The notes under the pieces were generated by a model that was not told the DNA's origin, made no database searches, and worked only from the letters and a program-made list of their open reading frames with translations. From an uncultured Spirochaetota bacterium (GTDB taxonomy: Bacteria; Spirochaetota; Spirochaetia; Treponematales; UBA12059), in the NCBI GenBank assembly GCA_937873275.1, contig CALMRC010000122.1:1-37713 (forward strand): DNA of 37,713 nt, written 5' to 3'. Positions within the stretch are counted from its first letter, which is position 1. The number at the start of each line of letters is the position of its first letter. The position numbers and the translations under genes were made by a program. Below, in pieces: positions 2,615-20,939 of the stretch.

Positions 2615-3008
2615 GAGATTCGGCAGGAGACGGAAGGGACGGGGAGACCGCCCCGCCGCGCCGCAGCAGCCCGGTTCCCCGGAGCCCGCCGAGGAAAGCG
2701 TCCGGCCGGGACCGCCCCTGGACTGCGGGTACTGTCACAAACCCATTTACGACCTTTCCACGGCCCTGGCCGACCGGGAAGGCGGCGGGCCCGTCCATTT
2801 CGACTGCGCCCTCCAGCGCGTCTCGGAGAGGGAGCCCCTGGCGGCGGGGGAGAGGATCGTGTACATCGGATCCGGAGTCTTCGCCGTCGTGGAGTACAAG
2901 GACCGTTCCGAGACGGCCTTCACGGTGAAGCGGCGCCTTCCCTTCGAGGAGGAGGGCAAGAAGCAGGACTGGCGCAAGGCCCTGTCCGCCCGGGTCTCGA
3001 GCCTCTGA
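2586..3008 (+). CDS. Conserved-looking hypothetical protein with a CxxC...HxxC zinc-binding module
   Basis: 140 aa. Residues 1-45 are basic, then Pro-rich and probably disordered. A compact cysteine module follows: C47-x2-C50 and H71-x2-C74 (DCGYCHKPI and VHFDCAL). It is spaced like a treble-clef or LIM-type zinc site in which the first pair annotates 'CxxC-x20-HxxC'. The C-terminal part forms short strands (RIVYIGSGVFAVVEYKD, AFTVKRRLPFEEE) and ends with a basic helix. No enzyme motif is visible. I do not recognise a named family; a small nucleic-acid or protein-binding role is a guess. It overlaps the 58-aa gene by 29 bases and is followed by the transporter after 23 bases. Confidence 0.75.
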   Translation: MADERRGNFRRFGRRRKGRGDRPAAPQQPGSPEPAEESVRPGPPLDCGYCHKPIYDLSTALADREGGGPVHFDCALQRVSEREPLAAGERIVYIGSGVFAVVEYKDRSETAFTVKRRLPFEEEGKKQDWRKALSARVSSL

Positions 3009-3031
3009 GCGCCCGCTCCCTCCGAACCGGC

Positions 3032-3943
3032 ATGCTTTCCGTCCTCCTGGCCCTTCTGAGCATTCTCGTCTGGAGCACCCTCGCCCTGTTCACCTCCCAG
3101 ACGGCCTCCCTTCCGCCCCTGTTCTCCGCCGGGGCCGCCCTGACGATCGGCGGCCTGGCCGGAATTCTCCGGATCCGGGACTGGAGGATCCCCCTGTCCA
3201 CCCTGGCGGTCGGCGTGGGAGGAATCTTCGGCTACCATGCCCTGCTGTTCGCCGCCTTCCGGCTCGCGCCCGCCGTGGAAGTCAACCTGATCAATTACCT
3301 CTGGCCCCTCCTGATCGTGGTGCTTTCCCCGGTCTACCTACCGGGATTTTCGCTGCGGCCCGCGCACCTGGCCGGGGCCTTCCTGGGCCTGTCCGGGGCC
3401 TTCCTCGTGGTGGGGGGCGGTCGGTTTTCCTTGAATCCCGCGGGACTTCCGGGACACCTCATGGCCGCCTCGGCGGCCTTCCTCTGGGCCACGTATTCCC
3501 TGTTGACCAAGAAGGTGCCCCCCTTCGGAACCGGCGCGGTCGGCCTGTTCTGCCTGGTGTCCGGGGCCCTGTCCTTGGGACTTTGGGCCGGATTGGAACT
3601 GGCCGGTCCGGGAAAGATCGTCCTCCCCGGGATGACGGGACGGGAGGCGCTGTTCCTCGTCCTCCTGGGGCTGGGGCCCATGGGCCTGGCCTTCTACACC
3701 TGGGACGCGGCCCTCAAGCGGGGGGATCCCCGGGTCATCGGTTCCCTGGCCTACCTGACGCCCCTGTTGTCCACCTTCAACCTGGTCGTCGTGGGGGGGA
3801 AGGAGCTGACCTGGGTCACCGGCGCCGCTCTGGCCTTGATCATGGCCGGGGCCCTGGTGGGATCCCGGGGAGGCCGGAGGCGGGCGGGGGACGGAGAAGC
3901 GCCGAGGGACGGCGCCCGTCCGGGGGGCCGTCCCGGCCGATGA
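3032..3943 (+). CDS. EamA/DMT superfamily transporter (YddG-like exporter)
   Basis: 303 aa, ten predicted membrane helices in two five-helix EamA repeats, with a basic tail (GGRRRAG...) at the C terminus. The first repeat has the SILVWSTLALF opening helix and a conserved VEVNLINYLWPLLIV block, which resembles the NYLWP segment of YddG-type aromatic amino acid exporters. The second begins near LMAASAAFLWATYSLLTKK. The family exports small metabolites across the inner membrane; the substrate here cannot be read from sequence. There is no good Shine-Dalgarno before ATG 3032 and it lies 23 bases after the previous gene, so it is probably translated from the upstream operon. It ends 6 bases from the end of serS on the other strand. 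Confidence 0.85.
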   Translation: MLSVLLALLSILVWSTLALFTSQTASLPPLFSAGAALTIGGLAGILRIRDWRIPLSTLAVGVGGIFGYHALLFAAFRLAPAVEVNLINYLWPLLIVVLSPVYLPGFSLRPAHLAGAFLGLSGAFLVVGGGRFSLNPAGLPGHLMAASAAFLWATYSLLTKKVPPFGTGAVGLFCLVSGALSLGLWAGLELAGPGKIVLPGMTGREALFLVLLGLGPMGLAFYTWDAALKRGDPRVIGSLAYLTPLLSTFNLVVVGGKELTWVTGAALALIMAGALVGSRGGRRRAGDGEAPRDGARPGGRPGR

Positions 3944-3949
3944 GCCGGC

Positions 3950-5230
3950 CTAGACCGACCGGGGTCGGATCTCCCCGAAACCCGTGTACGGCTTCAGGGC
4001 CGCGGGGATTCGGACGGAACCGTCCGCCTGCTGGAAGTTCTCCAGGATGGCGATGATGGCCCGGGAGCAGGCGATCGCGGTGCCGTTCAGCATATGGACG
4101 TACTTGCTCTTGCCGTCGTCGTCCTTGTACCGGACGTTGAGGCGCCGGGACTGGAAGTCCGTGCAGTTCGAGGTGCTGGTCACCTCTCCCCATTCCCCGC
4201 CGTTCCGGCCGGGCATCCAGGCCTCCAGGTCCCACTTTCGGTACGCGGGGGCTCCCAGGTCACCGGTGCAGGTGTCCACCACCCGGAAGGGGATCTCCAG
4301 GGCCGAGAAGATCTCCTCCTCGATGGCCCGGAGCTCCTCGTGGACCCGGTCCGAGTCCTCGGGCAGGACGTAGGCGAACATCTCGACCTTGGTGAACTGG
4401 TGGACCCGGTAGAGTCCCTTGGAGAACTGGCCGGCGGCCCCGGCCTCGCGGCGGAAGCAGTGGGAGACTCCCGCGAGCTTGAGGGGGAGGGCGGCCTTGT
4501 CCAGGACCTGGCCGGAGTGGTAGCCCCCCAGGGTGATCTCCGCGGTGCCGATCAGGCAGGTTCCCTCTCCCTCCACGGTGTAGACGTTGGACTCCGCTCC
4601 CCGGGGATTGAATCCGATGCCCTCCAGGATCTCCGTCTTGGCCACGTCCGGGGTGATGAAGGGGGTGAAGCCCTTTTCCCGAAGGCGGTCCAGGGCGAAA
4701 CGGACCAGGGCCAGTTCCAGGATCACGCCCTCGTTCTTGAGGTAGTAGAACTTCGTGCCGGACACCCGGGTGGCGGTGTCGAAGTCCAGGATGTCGAGGT
4801 CCTGGCCCAGCTGGACGTGGTCCTTGGGCTCGAAGGCGAACTCCGTGGGCTTCCCGACCCGCTTGACCTCGAGGTTGTCCTTGTCCTCCCGGCCGACCGG
4901 GGCCTCGGGATGGGCCATGTTGGGAATGCGGCGGCCCTCGACGTCCAGGCTCGCCTCCGCCTCGGCGTACTCCGCCTCCAGGGCCGCGATCCGGTCCTTG
5001 AGGGCCTTGCCCTCCTCGATGAGCCGTTTCCGCTCCTCATCCGGGAGCTTTCCCTTCATGGCGGCGGCGTTCTCGTTCCGCCTGCGGCGTTCGTCCTCCA
5101 GCTGGCGCAGGAGCTCACCCCGGCGGTCGAAGAGCCGGACGACGAGGTCCGGGTCGGCGTTCATGTTGCGGTCCGCGATGTTCTTCTTGACCGCGGCCAG
5201 GTTATCCTTGATGAATCGGTAGTCCAGCAT
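3950..5230 (-). CDS. serS: Seryl-tRNA synthetase
   Basis: 426 aa, normal length for bacterial SerRS. The N-terminal tRNA-binding coiled coil (~30-105; RRGELLRQLEDERRRRNE onward) is followed by the class II catalytic core. Motif 2 is in CFRREAGAAGQFSKGLYRVHQF, and the motif 3 region is HMLNGTAIACSRAIIAILENF near the C terminus. It charges tRNA-Ser, and tRNA-Sec if present, with serine in the cytoplasm. Start: an in-frame ATG lies 39 codons further upstream. That extension is Gly/Pro/Arg-rich and not conserved in the family, whereas ATG 5230 gives the standard MLDYRFIKDN start. It sits 8 bases behind a -10 box, so the mRNA is probably leaderless. It is divergent from the prfA operon. Confidence 0.97.
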   Translation of the reverse strand: MLDYRFIKDNLAAVKKNIADRNMNADPDLVVRLFDRRGELLRQLEDERRRRNENAAAMKGKLPDEERKRLIEEGKALKDRIAALEAEYAEAEASLDVEGRRIPNMAHPEAPVGREDKDNLEVKRVGKPTEFAFEPKDHVQLGQDLDILDFDTATRVSGTKFYYLKNEGVILELALVRFALDRLREKGFTPFITPDVAKTEILEGIGFNPRGAESNVYTVEGEGTCLIGTAEITLGGYHSGQVLDKAALPLKLAGVSHCFRREAGAAGQFSKGLYRVHQFTKVEMFAYVLPEDSDRVHEELRAIEEEIFSALEIPFRVVDTCTGDLGAPAYRKWDLEAWMPGRNGGEWGEVTSTSNCTDFQSRRLNVRYKDDDGKSKYVHMLNGTAIACSRAIIAILENFQQADGSVRIPAALKPYTGFGEIRPRSV

Positions 5231-5238
5231 GATGGGCG

Positions 5239-5268
5239 ATGATAGCCGAGGGGAGCGGGGCGATTCAA
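5239..5268 (-). promoter_or_regulatory. serS promoter (leaderless type)
   Basis: Minus strand: -35 TTGAAT (5263-5268), an 18-base spacer, -10 TATCAT (5239-5244), then 8 bases to the ATG at 5230. Transcription should start at or within a base or two of the ATG. No Shine-Dalgarno can fit. Confidence 0.65.
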
Positions 5269-5341
5269 GGCCGGGCCCGCCGGACCGCCGAAGGCCGACC
5301 GGGGACCCCGCGCGCGGGCCGTCCGCGGGCGGCGCGCTCCC

Positions 5342-5369
5342 TTGCACGAGTGCGGTACTATCCTATACC
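5342..5369 (+). promoter_or_regulatory. Promoter of the small four-Cys protein/prfA/prmC/rel operon
   Basis: -35 TTGCAC (5342-5347), a 16-base spacer, -10 TATACC (5364-5369), then 8 bases to ATG 5378. An overlapping TACTAT at 5356-5361 is an alternative -10. The spacing again predicts a leaderless or nearly leaderless transcript. Confidence 0.5.
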
Positions 5370-5377
5370 ATATCCCC

Positions 5378-5557
5378 ATGAAACTGGAGATCAATCCCCG
5401 CGGAAACGGCGCCTGCCCGATCTGCGCCTTCACGAAGGACTGCCGGATCAAGCGCCTGCTGATAGCCAACGCGGACTCCCTGGAGGGGAATCCCGACGAG
5501 TCCCTGGAGATCGTCATATACGGATGCCCGTACTTCAAGGAGAAGGCCGACCTGTGA
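5378..5557 (+). CDS. 59-aa four-cysteine protein (putative zinc or metal binding)
   Basis: Small protein with cysteines at 13, 16, 22 and 50 ([11 protein letters not shown] and GCPYFKE). They are arranged as CxxC-x5-C-x27-C, which could form one metal site. Function not recognised. An upstream ATG at 5342 would add 12 residues but would overlap the promoter boxes. ATG 5378 gives MKLEINPRG and lies 8 bases after the -10 box, so it is preferred. The stop overlaps the GTG start of prfA (GTGA), so expression is coupled to the peptide release factor. This is the first gene of the prfA-prmC-rel operon. Confidence 0.75.
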
Positions 5558-15724: not shown

Positions 15725-18169
15725 TCAAGCCCCGTCGGTTGCGAAGAACCGGGCGATCTCGCCGCGGATCCGCTCCAGGGGACCGGTTTCCACCCGACAG
15801 CGCGGCAGGGACTCCAGGAACTGGCTCCCGTACCGCTTGTGGACGATCCGGGAGTCCAGGACCGCCACGACCCCCCGGTCCTCGGAATGGCGGATGAGTC
15901 GGCCGAAGCCCTGTTTGAACCGGAGTACCGCCTCCGGGAGTGAAAGCTCCAGGAAGGGATTGCCCTCCCGGCGTTCGATGGCTTCGGCCCGGGCCTGCTG
16001 GACCGGGTCCGTCGGAACCCGGAAGGGAAGCTTGGCGATGACGACCATGCGCAGGGTATCCCCCGGCGCGTCGACGCCCTCCCAGAAGGAGTCCGTGGCG
16101 AACAGGACGCTGGCCGCGTCGGCCTTGAAGGATTCCAGGAGTCGCCCCCGCTCGTCCTGGCCCTGCCGGAAGGCCGTGATGCCCAGTTCGGACAGGCGGG
16201 GCAGGGCCGCCTCGTAGGAGGAGCGGAGGGAGTCGTAGGAGGTGAAGAGGACCAGGGCGTGCCCCGCCGAGGCTTCCAGGAGCCGGATGACGGCGCGGTC
16301 CACCCAGGCCTGCCACCGGGGATCGTTCGGGGCCGGGGCGTCGTCCGGCAGGGCAACCAGGGCGTTTTCCTCGTAGGGGAAGGGGGAGGGATAGACGGCG
16401 GTCTCCACGTCCTCCTCCGTCCGGGCCAGCCCCACCCGCCGTTTCCAGTAGTCGAAGGAGCCCCCGACGGCCAGGGTCGCGGAGGTGCAGACGACGGAGC
16501 GGTAGGGGTGGAAGACCGCCTCGTTCATCATCCCCGAGAGATCCAGCGGCGTCGCGGTGTACTTGGCGAAGGGCTCCCCCTTGCTGGTCTTCTCCCGGGA
16601 AACCCAGAGCACGGATTCCGGGTACTCCTGGGGCTCCCGGAACTGGGCGCACAGGGAGGCCAGCTCCGAGAGCCTGCGCAGGATGAGCTTGGCCTCGTAC
16701 ACGGACGGGTCCGCCCCGGCCTCCTCCGGGAGGGGATCGAAGAGGTCCTTGAGGAGCTGAGCCAGGGCCACCAGGGCCTTCTCCAGGGCGGACAGGGGCG
16801 CGAAGAGGGACTCCTCCCAGGCGGGTTCGCGCCGGCGGACCCGGAGGGAGGGCTCGGCGGCCAGGAAGGCGACGGTCCGGGTGTCCAGGTCGTCCGCCGC
16901 GGCCCGGACCGCGGCGATCTGCCCGGGAACCTTGGCGAAGAGGTCCGCGGGAAGGCCTTTCAGGTTCTGGATCCGCACCAGGGCCCCGAAACGGCGGTCC
17001 CGCTTGGTGCGGAACAGGCGCCCCAGGGCCCGGAGGACGGAGAACCGGGTCAACTCCTCGGAGAAATAGCTCACCGCGCTGGATTCCATGGCGTGGGCCT
17101 CGTCGAAGACCAGGGCCTGGAAGGGGGGCAAAACCGCGGCGGCCTCGTACCCCGCCCCCCCCATGCGGGCCGCCAGGTCCGCGAACAGCAGGTGGTGGTT
17201 GGCCACGATGAGGTTGGCGTCCGCGGCCTCCCGCTTGGCCCGGAGCACGAAGCAGTCCCCCCGGCGGGAACACCGGAGGCCCAGGCAGGCGTCGGACTCC
17301 GAGCGCACCCGGCTCCAGGTCTCCTCGTCGGGCCAGAAGGCCAGGTCCGCCCGGTCCCCCGTGGGGCTGGCGTCCGCCCAGGCTGCGATCCGGCGGAGGG
17401 GATGCTCGTCCCCGCCCGCCAGGAGTCCCTCCTCGTCCAGGGCCTCGGCCAGGCGGTTCCGGCAGAGATAGTTCCCCCGACCCTTGGCCAGTACGGCCTT
17501 GAGCTTTTTCCGGAAGAGTTCCCGGACCACGGGGATGTCCTTGTCCATGAGCTGGCGCTGGAGGTTCAGGGTGGCGGTGGAAACCACGACCCGATCCCCG
17601 TTGCGGGCCGCCCAGGCGAAGGCCGGCAGTAGGTATGCGTAGGACTTCCCCACCCCGGTACCCGCCTCGGCGGCCAGGACGAGGCCCTCGTTGAAGGCCC
17701 GGGTGACGTGCCGGGCGAGCTCGATCTGGCTCTCCCGGGCCTCGTAGGCGGGGATGCGCCGGGAGAGCTTGCCCCCGGGCTCCAGGACCCCCGCGATCTC
17801 ATCCTCGTCCAGGGCCACCAGGGCCCGGCGTCGGGCGGGCTCCGCGATGACGTAGATCCGCTCCACCGGGTTGTCCACGATGTAGGAGCCGATCCCGCGC
17901 TCCCCGACGGAGGACGCCACGGAAAGGTCCGCCTGGCTGGGCTCCAGGACCCCGGACGGGTGGTTGTGGAGGATCACGTCTCCCCGGTCCAGGTAGGAGG
18001 CCAGGGCCAGGACCTCGTCCTTGCGGCCCCGGGCGGCCACGGTGATCTCCTCCACCCGGCCGTCCTCGTCCAGCCGCCCCGCGGCGAAGACCTCGTTTCC
18101 GCCCGCGTCCGCGATGGCTTCCCGGAGCGCCTCTGCGGCGGAGGCGGTCAGGCGCTCCGAGGCGGTCAT
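15725..18169 (-). CDS. dinG: JAMM (RadC-like) domain fused to a DinG-type Fe-S helicase
   Basis: 814 aa. N-terminal ~20-115 is a complete JAMM/MPN+ metallo-domain: Glu26 (GNEVFAAG), H68-x-H70, S78 and D81, spaced exactly HxHx7SxxD within LHNHPSGVLEPSQAD, which is RadC-like. A superfamily 2 XPD/DinG helicase follows: Walker A EAGTGVGKS (~168-176), and four Fe-S cysteines (YLC, ACLGLRC, GDCF) before IVANHHLLFADL. The DEAH box is LVFDEAH, with C-terminal motifs VLFATDSFWEGVDAPG and GFGRLIRHSEDRG. DinG unwinds D-loops, R-loops and G4 DNA 5'-3'; some Gram-positive DinG proteins carry an exonuclease instead. Start ATG 18169 overlaps the PNP stop; upstream in-frame sequence is a shadow of that gene. 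Confidence 0.93.
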   Translation of the reverse strand: MTASERLTASAAEALREAIADAGGNEVFAAGRLDEDGRVEEITVAARGRKDEVLALASYLDRGDVILHNHPSGVLEPSQADLSVASSVGERGIGSYIVDNPVERIYVIAEPARRRALVALDEDEIAGVLEPGGKLSRRIPAYEARESQIELARHVTRAFNEGLVLAAEAGTGVGKSYAYLLPAFAWAARNGDRVVVSTATLNLQRQLMDKDIPVVRELFRKKLKAVLAKGRGNYLCRNRLAEALDEEGLLAGGDEHPLRRIAAWADASPTGDRADLAFWPDEETWSRVRSESDACLGLRCSRRGDCFVLRAKREAADANLIVANHHLLFADLAARMGGAGYEAAAVLPPFQALVFDEAHAMESSAVSYFSEELTRFSVLRALGRLFRTKRDRRFGALVRIQNLKGLPADLFAKVPGQIAAVRAAADDLDTRTVAFLAAEPSLRVRRREPAWEESLFAPLSALEKALVALAQLLKDLFDPLPEEAGADPSVYEAKLILRRLSELASLCAQFREPQEYPESVLWVSREKTSKGEPFAKYTATPLDLSGMMNEAVFHPYRSVVCTSATLAVGGSFDYWKRRVGLARTEEDVETAVYPSPFPYEENALVALPDDAPAPNDPRWQAWVDRAVIRLLEASAGHALVLFTSYDSLRSSYEAALPRLSELGITAFRQGQDERGRLLESFKADAASVLFATDSFWEGVDAPGDTLRMVVIAKLPFRVPTDPVQQARAEAIERREGNPFLELSLPEAVLRFKQGFGRLIRHSEDRGVVAVLDSRIVHKRYGSQFLESLPRCRVETGPLERIRGEIARFFATDGA

Positions 18170-18978
18170 GCCAGCTTGGCGAGTATCTTGAGGAGCAGGG
18201 CCTTGAGCTCGGACTCCGCGCGCTTGCCGACCTCGACCACCTCGGCGTGGGCCAGGGGTGTCTTGCTGATGCCCGCGGCCATGTTGGTCACGCAGGAGAT
18301 GCCCAGCACCCGCATGCCCAGGTACCGGGCGGCGGTGGCCTCGGGCACGGTGGACATGCCCACCAGGTCCGCCCCGAGGGTCCGGAGCATACGGATCTCC
18401 GCGGGGGTCTCGTAGGATGGACCGGTCAGTCCCGCGTAGACCCCCTCCTTGAGGGGCTTCTCCGCGCAGCTCCAGGCAAGGGCCCGGAGGTCCTTGGAGT
18501 AGACCTCGCTCATGTCGAAGAAACGCTCCCCCAGGGGCTTGCCGGAGGGATCCGAGGGATTCGGCCCGATGAAGGCGTTCGTCCCCATCAGGTTGATGTG
18601 GTCCTGGATGAGCACGAGGTCCCCGGGAACGTACTTGGTGTTGATGCCCCCCGCTGCGTTCGTGAGGATCAGGTTCTGGACCCCCAGGGCCTTCAGGAAA
18701 AAGATCGGGAGAACCACGTCGTCCATCGGGTGCCCTTCGTAGAAATGGAAGCGTCCCGCCAGGATCGCGGCGTCCTTCGACAGGCACAGGAGCCCCTTGT
18801 GCCCCTGCACGGTGGGCCGCGGAAACTCGGGAATCTCGGAATAGGGAATCTCCTTGAATCCCAGACCCTCCACGATGCCCGACAGCCCGGAGCCCAGGAT
18901 CACGGCGGTCCGGGGTCGGTACTCCGGGGGAATCGCCGCGGCCGCCCTCTCCACTCGCTCTCCATATCCCTGCTTCAT
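18166..18978 (-). CDS. punA: Purine nucleoside phosphorylase (trimeric type)
   Basis: 270 aa, the size of trimeric PNP-I. It cleaves guanosine and inosine-type nucleosides with phosphate to the base plus (deoxy)ribose-1-phosphate. Motifs in order: ILGSGLSG, a PTVQGHKG phosphate-binding region, [63 protein letters not shown] (purine-binding Glu and the M-S-T-V-P-E block), then CVTNMAAG. The purine-site residue that separates trimeric PNP from MTAP lies in [13 protein letters not shown]. The Asn there (VTN) favours 6-oxopurines. Start ATG 18978 overlaps the MCP stop; the end overlaps dinG. The pairing with a chemoreceptor is unexplained. Confidence 0.95.
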
Positions 18979-20897
18979 ACGGTTTCCCTCCCTTTCGACG
19001 ATTCCCCGGCGGCCGATCCGTCCGGCTCCGGACCGGATCCCTCGGAAACCTTGAACCGGGCGACGAGCTCCCGGAGCCTCCGGACGGATTCCGAGTTTTC
19101 CGTGCCCGCCCGGGAGATGGCCTCGGCGGCCTTGTAGATCTCGTTGATACCGATCGTGATCTCCTCCATGCCGTTCTTGGTCTCCGAGGAGTAGTCGGAC
19201 ATCCGGCCCATGGCGTCCGAGATCGCGGCCACCCGGTCGTTCATCTCCCGGCTGGAGCCCTTGACCTCCTCGGTGGTGCTCACCAGGGTGCCCAGGGCCT
19301 CCAGGACCTCCCGGGCGCCCAGGGACAGCTCGTGGGTAGTGTTCTTCATCTCCGACATGGAGTCCGCCACATCCTTGACCTTCTCCACGATCTGCGTGAA
19401 GGCGGTGCCGGTCCGCTCGGTGCTCGCCTCGGATACCTTGATATACCCCATGACCTCTCCCAGGGAGTGGGTGATCTGGGCGGCGCTCTCGGCGCTGGAT
19501 TCCGCAAGGTTCCGGATCTCGTCGGCCACGACGGCGAACCCCTTGCCGTATTCGCCCGCGTGGGCCGCCTCGATGGCGGCGTTCATGGCCAGGAGGTTGG
19601 TCTTGGAGGCGATGCCCTGGATGATCTCGATCATCTCCAGGATGACCCCCGCGGACTGGGCGACCTTCTTGATGACCTGCTCGGTCTCCTCCATCTCCGT
19701 CTGGCCGCCCTGGGCCGTCGTCTCCAGCTCCGTCGAGATGCGGAGCTTCTCCTCCGCGGTCTTGGCTATGTTGTTGATGGACGCCCCCATCTGCTCGATG
19801 CTGGCGCTGGACTGGGTGATGGCCGCGGCCTGGTTCTGGATCAGCTCCGCCAGACGGCCGATGTAGTCCCGCAGGTCCCGGGCGGAGGTGGCGCTGTCCG
19901 AGATCTCCTCGTCCAGGCGGACGATCTTGTCCTTCATGTGCTCCGTGTTCGTCCGGATCTCGTGGAGGCTGGCGGCGGTCTCCTCGGAGCTGGCGGCCAG
20001 GTCCAGGGAGATGGCGCCCACGCCGTCGGATTCCGACTTCACCCGCTGGACCATGGATTCCAGGGTCCCGATGAAGTCGTTGAAGTAGTCCGCGACCTTC
20101 CCGATCTCGTCCCGGGCGCTTACCGCGGCCCGGACCGTCAGGTCCCCGCCCGCGGAACGCTCGAAGGCGAGGACGTATCCCGCGATCGGCCGGAGGACCA
20201 GCCGGACCACCAGGAAGAGGCTGGCGCCCAGCAGGGCCATCACCGTGAGGGTGAAGGCGGCGATGTTCCGGATCGCCTGGCTTCGGGCCTCCGAGGCGGC
20301 CCCCAGGGAGCTGATGATCTCGAAGGCGCCGTGCACCTCCCCGACCTTCCAGCCTTCCCGGACGCCGCCCACCGGATCCGGGCTGCCCGCGGGGTCCCCG
20401 TGGCAGATCATGCATTCCCGGGTCAGGCGGATCGGCCGGAAATACCGGACCTGGAAGCGTTCCCGGACGACGTATTCCTCCAGGGTTCCCGATTCCAGGG
20501 CCTTCAGGGCCTCGATCTCCGGACCCGCGGGGACGTTGGCGGGATTCCGGGGGGAAAATTTAGGCACCCTCAGGAGGTACCGGTTCGATTCCGCGTTCCG
20601 GCTGGCCACGTCGATGGCCGAAAGGATGGGCACCGCGGCGAGGATCTTCTCCCGATCCCCCTCCGCGGCCAGCTCCTCCAGGTCCCGGATGACACCCATG
20701 TCGAGCTTTGCCGCCATGGCGTCCCGGGTGGCTTCGGCGGTCATGACGATGATCCGGCTCTTTTCCAGGATCGAAGTATAGGCCATCTTGGCGATGTCCC
20801 CGATGTACACCAGGGCGATCAACACCGCGATCACGGCGATTCCCGCCAGGGTGATGCTAAGCACTTTCGCCTTCAGGCTCAGGTCGCGAATCCTCAT
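18975..20897 (-). CDS. Methyl-accepting chemotaxis protein with a periplasmic CxxCH heme-type sensor domain
   Basis: 640 aa. TM1 ~12-32, periplasmic domain ~33-210, TM2 ~212-234, HAMP ~235-290, then a long cytoplasmic signalling coil. The hairpin tip ([42 protein letters not shown]) is diagnostic of MCPs. The periplasmic domain ends in a CxxCH site (C162, C165, H166 in [17 protein letters not shown]), as in DUF3365 (Tll0287-like) sensors that bind c-type heme. It probably senses redox state, oxygen or NO-like ligands and signals to CheA/CheW. Start ATG 20897 has AGGAG 5 bases upstream and a promoter at 20940-20968. It heads the MCP-punA-dinG operon. Confidence 0.95.
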
Positions 20898-20939
20898 CCG
20901 GGCTCCTCTTGGCATCAAAGGAACGTTGCTCCGGAAACC

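Follow-up and report, generated by a model that had tools for sequence, protein, structure and literature searches.

The fused gene

The window, a stretch of 37,713 nucleotides from an uncultured Spirochaetota bacterium, contains a gene on the minus strand (15725..18169) that codes for a protein of 814 aa, in which profile and homologue matches identify a RadC-like JAB domain followed by a YoaA/DinG-type Fe-S helicase. The interval is exactly one intact open reading frame, with the ATG at 18169-18167 and the stop codon at 15727-15725, and all of the features described below lie on the same strand. Residues 1-112 (17834..18169) form the RadC-like JAB/JAMM domain, recognised by Pfam RadC, AlphaFold2 and matches to JAMM structures in the PDB. 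The sequence and the homologue alignment place the catalytic-type glutamate of the JAMM motif, E26, at 18092..18094, and the metal-site motif H68-N-H70-PSG-x4-S78-x2-D81, near-invariant in homologues, at 17927..17968. The linker helices (residues 113-141, 17747..17833) are also present in most JAB-less homologues. The helicase carries the Walker A motif EAGTGVGKS (residues 168-176, 17642..17668), the Fe-S cluster region with C236, C295, C300 and C306 (17252..17464; four cysteines in 135/135 homologues), a DEAH box that is also seen in the homologue alignment (residues 356-359, 17093..17104) and the Helicase_C_2 motor domain 2 (residues 628-790, 15800..16288; profile E 1.6e-47).

Homologues were found in all 80 of the best 80 genome-contig loci and in 37 of 39 relatives, mostly full-length and in a single frame. 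Pairwise dN/dS values of about 0.03-0.27 for the JAB domain and 0.04-0.23 for the helicase are low in both parts, indicating that both are under purifying selection. Taken together, the recurrence in a single frame and the low dN/dS in both halves exclude chance and frame error. An artefact of frame or assembly joining two genes has a negligible probability, since the frame is unbroken in independent assemblies, the closed genomes NZ_CP067089 and NZ_CP084606 among them; the fusion is confirmed as real and is no assembly accident.

Fold and family of the N-terminal domain

The Pfam RadC profile (PF04002) matches the full protein with 24.8 bits (cut-off 22.1, E 2.2e-5) and residues 1-145 alone with 30.5 bits, and it is matched by all 80 homologous N-termini. 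Full-length RadC models (PRK00024 / TIGR00608) fall short, with 22.1 against 180 bits and 17.3 against 133.85 bits. Two further RadC loci, both stand-alone genes, are located elsewhere in the same genome. Prok-JAB (PF14464) has no match in the window's own genome, and the N-terminus alone scores 13.7 against a cut-off of 25.

AlphaFold2 modelling of residues 1-145, with 80 homologues as input, yielded a JAMM fold (pLDDT 92). Its structural matches are JAMM proteins and span residues 4-110: BubCD (Z 11.3, rmsd 2.4, 107 aligned), CsRpn11 (Z 11.2, rmsd 2.5, 105 aligned) and PfJAMM1 (Z 10.4, rmsd 2.8, 100 aligned), and Foldseek also lists RadC (2QLC), with E 1.2e-3. In the PDB, matches to peptidase-type JAMMs are at least as strong as those to RadC. 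When sequence profiles are compared, RadC 2QLC is alone among solved JAB relatives in reaching significance (E 1.6e-6); archaeal JAMMs (E 0.2-0.3) and BubCD (0.54) do not. The 105 model residues aligned to CsRpn11 span ~134 residues of that protein, suggesting that the peptidases carry segments absent from the window domain.

The domain shares the fold and the E/H/H/S/D site with JAMM isopeptidases of the deubiquitinase type. These, however, have S/T between the two histidines, the peptidase motif being given in PMC300881 as EXnH(S/T)HX7SXXD, whereas the window domain has an invariant N69, and HNHPSG is of the RadC type. With RadC (PF04002; 2QLC), its best sequence match, it has the HNHPSG...PS..D JAB motif in common; unlike RadC it is short, fused to a helicase and weak against full-length RadC models. 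The JAMM matches and the RadC-like sequence together indicate a JAMM fold and a short domain of the RadC-like clade, rather than an orthologue of full-length RadC. The sequence-only reading from which this work started was therefore correct on several points: E26, H68-N-H70, S78 and D81 are all where it placed them, the HNHPSG context is of RadC type (N69, and Pfam RadC above its cut-off), the predicted JAMM fold is obtained and the fusion is genuine, with an unbroken frame.

The helicase

From about residue 134 on, the protein is an Fe-S helicase of the XPD/Rad3 class, and a complete one: Helicase_C_2, Walker A, DEAH and the four Fe-S cysteines are all present. The signature residues are invariant in 135 distinct proteins, except that two arginines are absent from one truncated row. 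The full-length model (pLDDT 89, pTM 0.81) has E. coli DinG with ssDNA (6fwr) as its first structural match. Among NCBIfam models, YoaA ranks top with 562 bits, ahead of DinG, a score below the equivalog cut-off of 680 for the YoaA model NF053712. Judged by these profiles, the helicase is nearer YoaA than DinG; of the earlier assignment to a complete Fe-S DinG helicase, the completeness and the Fe-S type stand. Models of exonuclease-DinG proteins align to the helicase part only, from residue 134 onward, and no DnaQ-type 3'-5' exonuclease was found at the N-terminus.

E. coli YoaA has the four Fe-S cysteines and the motor architecture in common with the window helicase. In complex with chi, on which its solubility depends, it separates the strands of forked DNA with 5'-3' polarity and also opens substrates whose 3' ends are blocked (PMC9826845). 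The window protein differs in its additional JAB domain, in scoring below the YoaA cut-off and in that HolC, the partner of YoaA, was not found: it was detected in none of 39 relatives, including the window's genome (assembly ~97% complete), while HolC-bearing control genomes were detected.

Distribution

A search for the fused architecture found it in most Spirochaetia. The best 80 genome-contig loci are all from spirochaetes by title, one being titled only 'bacterium', and the front domain is present wherever the contig covers that region. In 295 Spirochaetota genomes the helicase was matched in 263; the full architecture occurs in many families of Spirochaetia and in several families outside that class. 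In the window's own family the front domain is present wherever the gene is complete. Outside the phylum, Fusobacterium vincentii has a version of the fusion, and the same architecture is described in Desulfuromonas (Cheng 2025, PMC11981726).

Among the matches listed for phage and plasmid records, only F. vincentii (L110, gene at 2914-5382) aligned beyond the helicase; its record is filed as a plasmid and is chromosome-sized, at 2.1 Mb. A viral origin was considered and rejected, as a helicase of this type lies near none of the 80 viral JAB loci examined. The best explanation is a chromosomal gene that was inherited vertically, in step with its lineage.

Conservation and decay of the metal site

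The JAMM residues E/H/H/S/D are near-invariant in JAB-bearing proteins in the alignment of 135 distinct homologues. Position 26 is E in 123/135 of these, the remainder being gaps, one S and one V. One locus (L044) has an H68R substitution, and at the positions of E, H, H, S, D the spirochaete protein L130 (relative G181) reads V, S, H, S, D, having lost E26 and H68 and kept the domain. Its sister L146 has an intact metal site. The F. vincentii protein (L110) has S, R, T, S, E and is thus without E26, H68, H70 and D81; aligned across 144 columns, its front domain is a genuine homologue (hhalign 94.9%). The few lineages that keep the domain without its ligands show that a non-catalytic role can exist.

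Loss of the domain

A FastTree phylogeny of the helicase alone comprised 163 proteins, namely 125 with the domain, 35 without it and 3 set aside as degenerate. Presence and absence mapped on this tree, which has some long branches and unsure deep placement, require 13 changes, of which some 9 are forced by starred branches. Within Spirochaetota the domain seems to be ancestral, the helicase having been retained through about 9 or more clean losses; its presence in deep branches suggests that it was there from the start and was not regained. Several losses occurred inside one Treponema-like genus. The domain is usually intact or wholly absent: JAB-less proteins begin within or just before the linker leading into the helicase, and no split-gene remnants were found upstream of JAB-less homologues. 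Since the domain was repeatedly dropped and the helicase kept, the helicase has no need of it.

One protein of the 'pseudo' group in the tree, L174 (relative G210), was considered as a degenerate JAB and not counted as confirmed, only its linker having matched the profile. Its N-terminal ~105 aa, without a JAB-profile match, may be a fully decayed JAB or something else.

Gene neighbourhood

A purine nucleoside phosphorylase (PNP) gene lies directly upstream (18166..18978, minus strand; PF01048, E 5.9e-49), and its stop codon overlaps the helicase start codon as ATGA, an arrangement that suggests translational coupling of the two genes. Downstream are genes for a mannose-6-phosphate isomerase and a DUF188 protein. 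The PNP gene is itself adjoined by a gene (18975-20918, minus strand) for a methyl-accepting chemotaxis protein with a Tll0287-like sensor domain.

Among immediate upstream neighbours PNP forms the largest class, being present at 23/120 domain-bearing loci with enough flank, or 24/120 if L024 is added, whose neighbour, like that of L030, looks like a related MTA phosphorylase. The adjacency spans the window's family to the deep lineages L111 and L112, the helicases of which are 34-37% identical. PNP is beside none of the 33 domain-less loci; as these are mostly in clades that have no PNP neighbour anyway, this is no evidence of a link between PNP and the domain. Only 0-1 informative pairs are available for the association of JAB and PNP against the phylogeny, and PNP could be a passive housekeeping neighbour. 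Other common upstream neighbours, judged by eye from their sequences, look like a RelA/SpoT-type gene and a large, peptidase-like exported protein. Searches for a Prok-E2_B gene gave no match in 39 relatives, and the control genomes were equally silent.

Relation to known proteins

According to the sequence-only reading, the enzyme carried by known DinG fusions is an exonuclease. This has to be corrected: a 'RadC-like DinG' subgroup with putative catalytic E, H, H and D has been named (Cheng 2025, PMC11981726 section 3.8), and Aravind's group had already described fusions of RadC with DinG/RAD3 and proposed nucleic-acid processing (PMC5512222, citing a paper of 2011). As the architecture is already published, the window gene is a further member and no new fusion. 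The RadC-like DinG of Desulfuromonas soudanensis has, like the window protein, an N-terminal RadC-like domain with E, H, H and D, a YoaA-like helicase with a four-cysteine Fe-S domain and intact motifs, no HolC, and JAMM metalloproteases as structural neighbours; there is no categorical difference between them. Neither we nor the 2025 review (PMC11981726) know of a biochemical test on any RadC-like DinG.

ExoDinG / pExoDinG (S. aureus DinG, 8zef/9ii8) likewise place an N-terminal enzyme on a DinG-like helicase and, like the RadC-like group, include active and inactive versions; the ExoDinG enzyme is a 3'-5' exonuclease, whereas that of the window is a JAB. In other DinG-like subgroups, nucleases fill the N-terminal enzyme slot. 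The SF2 helicase/RadC polyvalent proteins of mobile elements (PMC5512222) likewise have RadC and an SF2 helicase on a single polypeptide, but their helicase type and domain order differ from those of the window's chromosomal gene. A protein resembling them was seen at L262 (3051-6941, minus strand; relative G037), where a 1296-aa part of a longer protein contains an SNF2-type helicase and RadC.

To our knowledge, neither the repeated losses, nor the Fusobacterium version without ligands, nor PNP as a neighbour has been reported before. The main text of Cheng 2025 (PMC11981726) mentions none of them, and no spirochaetes.

Possible function

The protein may be a chromosomal housekeeping repair helicase of Spirochaetota that serves in damage tolerance. 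Its YoaA-like Fe-S motor, presumably 5'-3', would open forked or gapped DNA whose ends are blocked. The RadC-like JAB, probably a catalytic, zinc-dependent hydrolase, would take the position that the exonuclease has in ExoDinG and work on the strand that the helicase is handling, where it would hydrolyse a nucleic-acid or nucleotide-type bond; its target could be an adduct, a released nucleotide or a blocked end. We infer zinc binding and 5'-3' unwinding from homology. The JAB activity would be accessory to the helicase, as suggested by the many lineages that dropped the JAB and kept the helicase; a hydrolase that is conserved yet often lost fits accessory end-processing or adduct-processing.

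A nucleic acid or nucleotide as the substrate of the JAB domain is a tentative assignment, with chances somewhat short of even. In its favour are the sequence, which is RadC-like, the HNH motif, the extra peptidase segments that appear to be missing, and the PNP neighbour. Counted against it are the PDB matches to peptidase-type JAMMs, the normal DNA-damage sensitivity of E. coli radC mutants (as cited in PMC11981726), the possibly passive nature of the PNP neighbour and the few lineages that keep the domain without ligands; a literature search found no paper on adduct or RadC activity. Of the roles suggested earlier, action on a nucleotide or nucleic-acid adduct is thus somewhat favoured, and no positive evidence was obtained here for an isopeptidase or for self-processing.

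The structural matches, of which the best are the deubiquitinase-type JAMMs BubCD, CsRpn11 and PfJAMM1, lean towards a peptidase or isopeptidase that would free crosslinked or conjugated protein from DNA or replication proteins while the helicase tracks the strand, and the domain has the residues of an active JAMM enzyme. This role is nevertheless unlikely: by sequence RadC is the only significant solved relative, the motif has HNH and not H(S/T)H, segments of the peptidases appear from the structural alignments to be absent, and RadC JABs have been argued by Aravind's group (PMC5512222) to be without the Ub-tail groove and placed where nucleases sit.

It is similarly improbable that the JAB is mainly a docking or regulatory domain with a structural metal, standing in, for example, for HolC as the link between YoaA and the replisome. 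The failure to find HolC in 39 relatives, with HolC detected in controls, the requirement of YoaA for chi for its solubility (PMC9826845), the homologous domain without ligands in F. vincentii and the loss of E26 and H68 in L130 would suit such a role; elsewhere, however, the metal site is near-invariant, and so is its E26, a catalytic-type residue that is not a ligand, and JAB-less homologues likewise live without HolC. Self-processing, in which the JAB would cut its own linker of about 25-30 residues between the domains and release the helicase, is very improbable, because the linker persists where the JAB is absent and is therefore better read as belonging to the helicase than as a cleavage site.

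The nucleic-acid reading has a bolder form, in which the RadC-like domain would be a new zinc hydrolase acting on helicase-opened ends or nucleotides and feeding the adjacent PNP. Such a unit of helicase, end-processor and salvage enzyme is a long shot; if true, it would give the RadC class its first activity.

JAB domains of the RadC-like kind abound in bacteria, and the window offers a case in which such a domain, its metal site conserved, shares one polypeptide with a repair helicase. The suggestion that the fusion hints at what RadC-like domains do is relevant, but not novel, the hint having already been used in print. Close relatives without the domain make one helicase comparable with and without the JAB, and the ligand-less Fusobacterium version, if general there, would be a natural catalytic null. 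The window gene and its relatives make the RadC question more testable.
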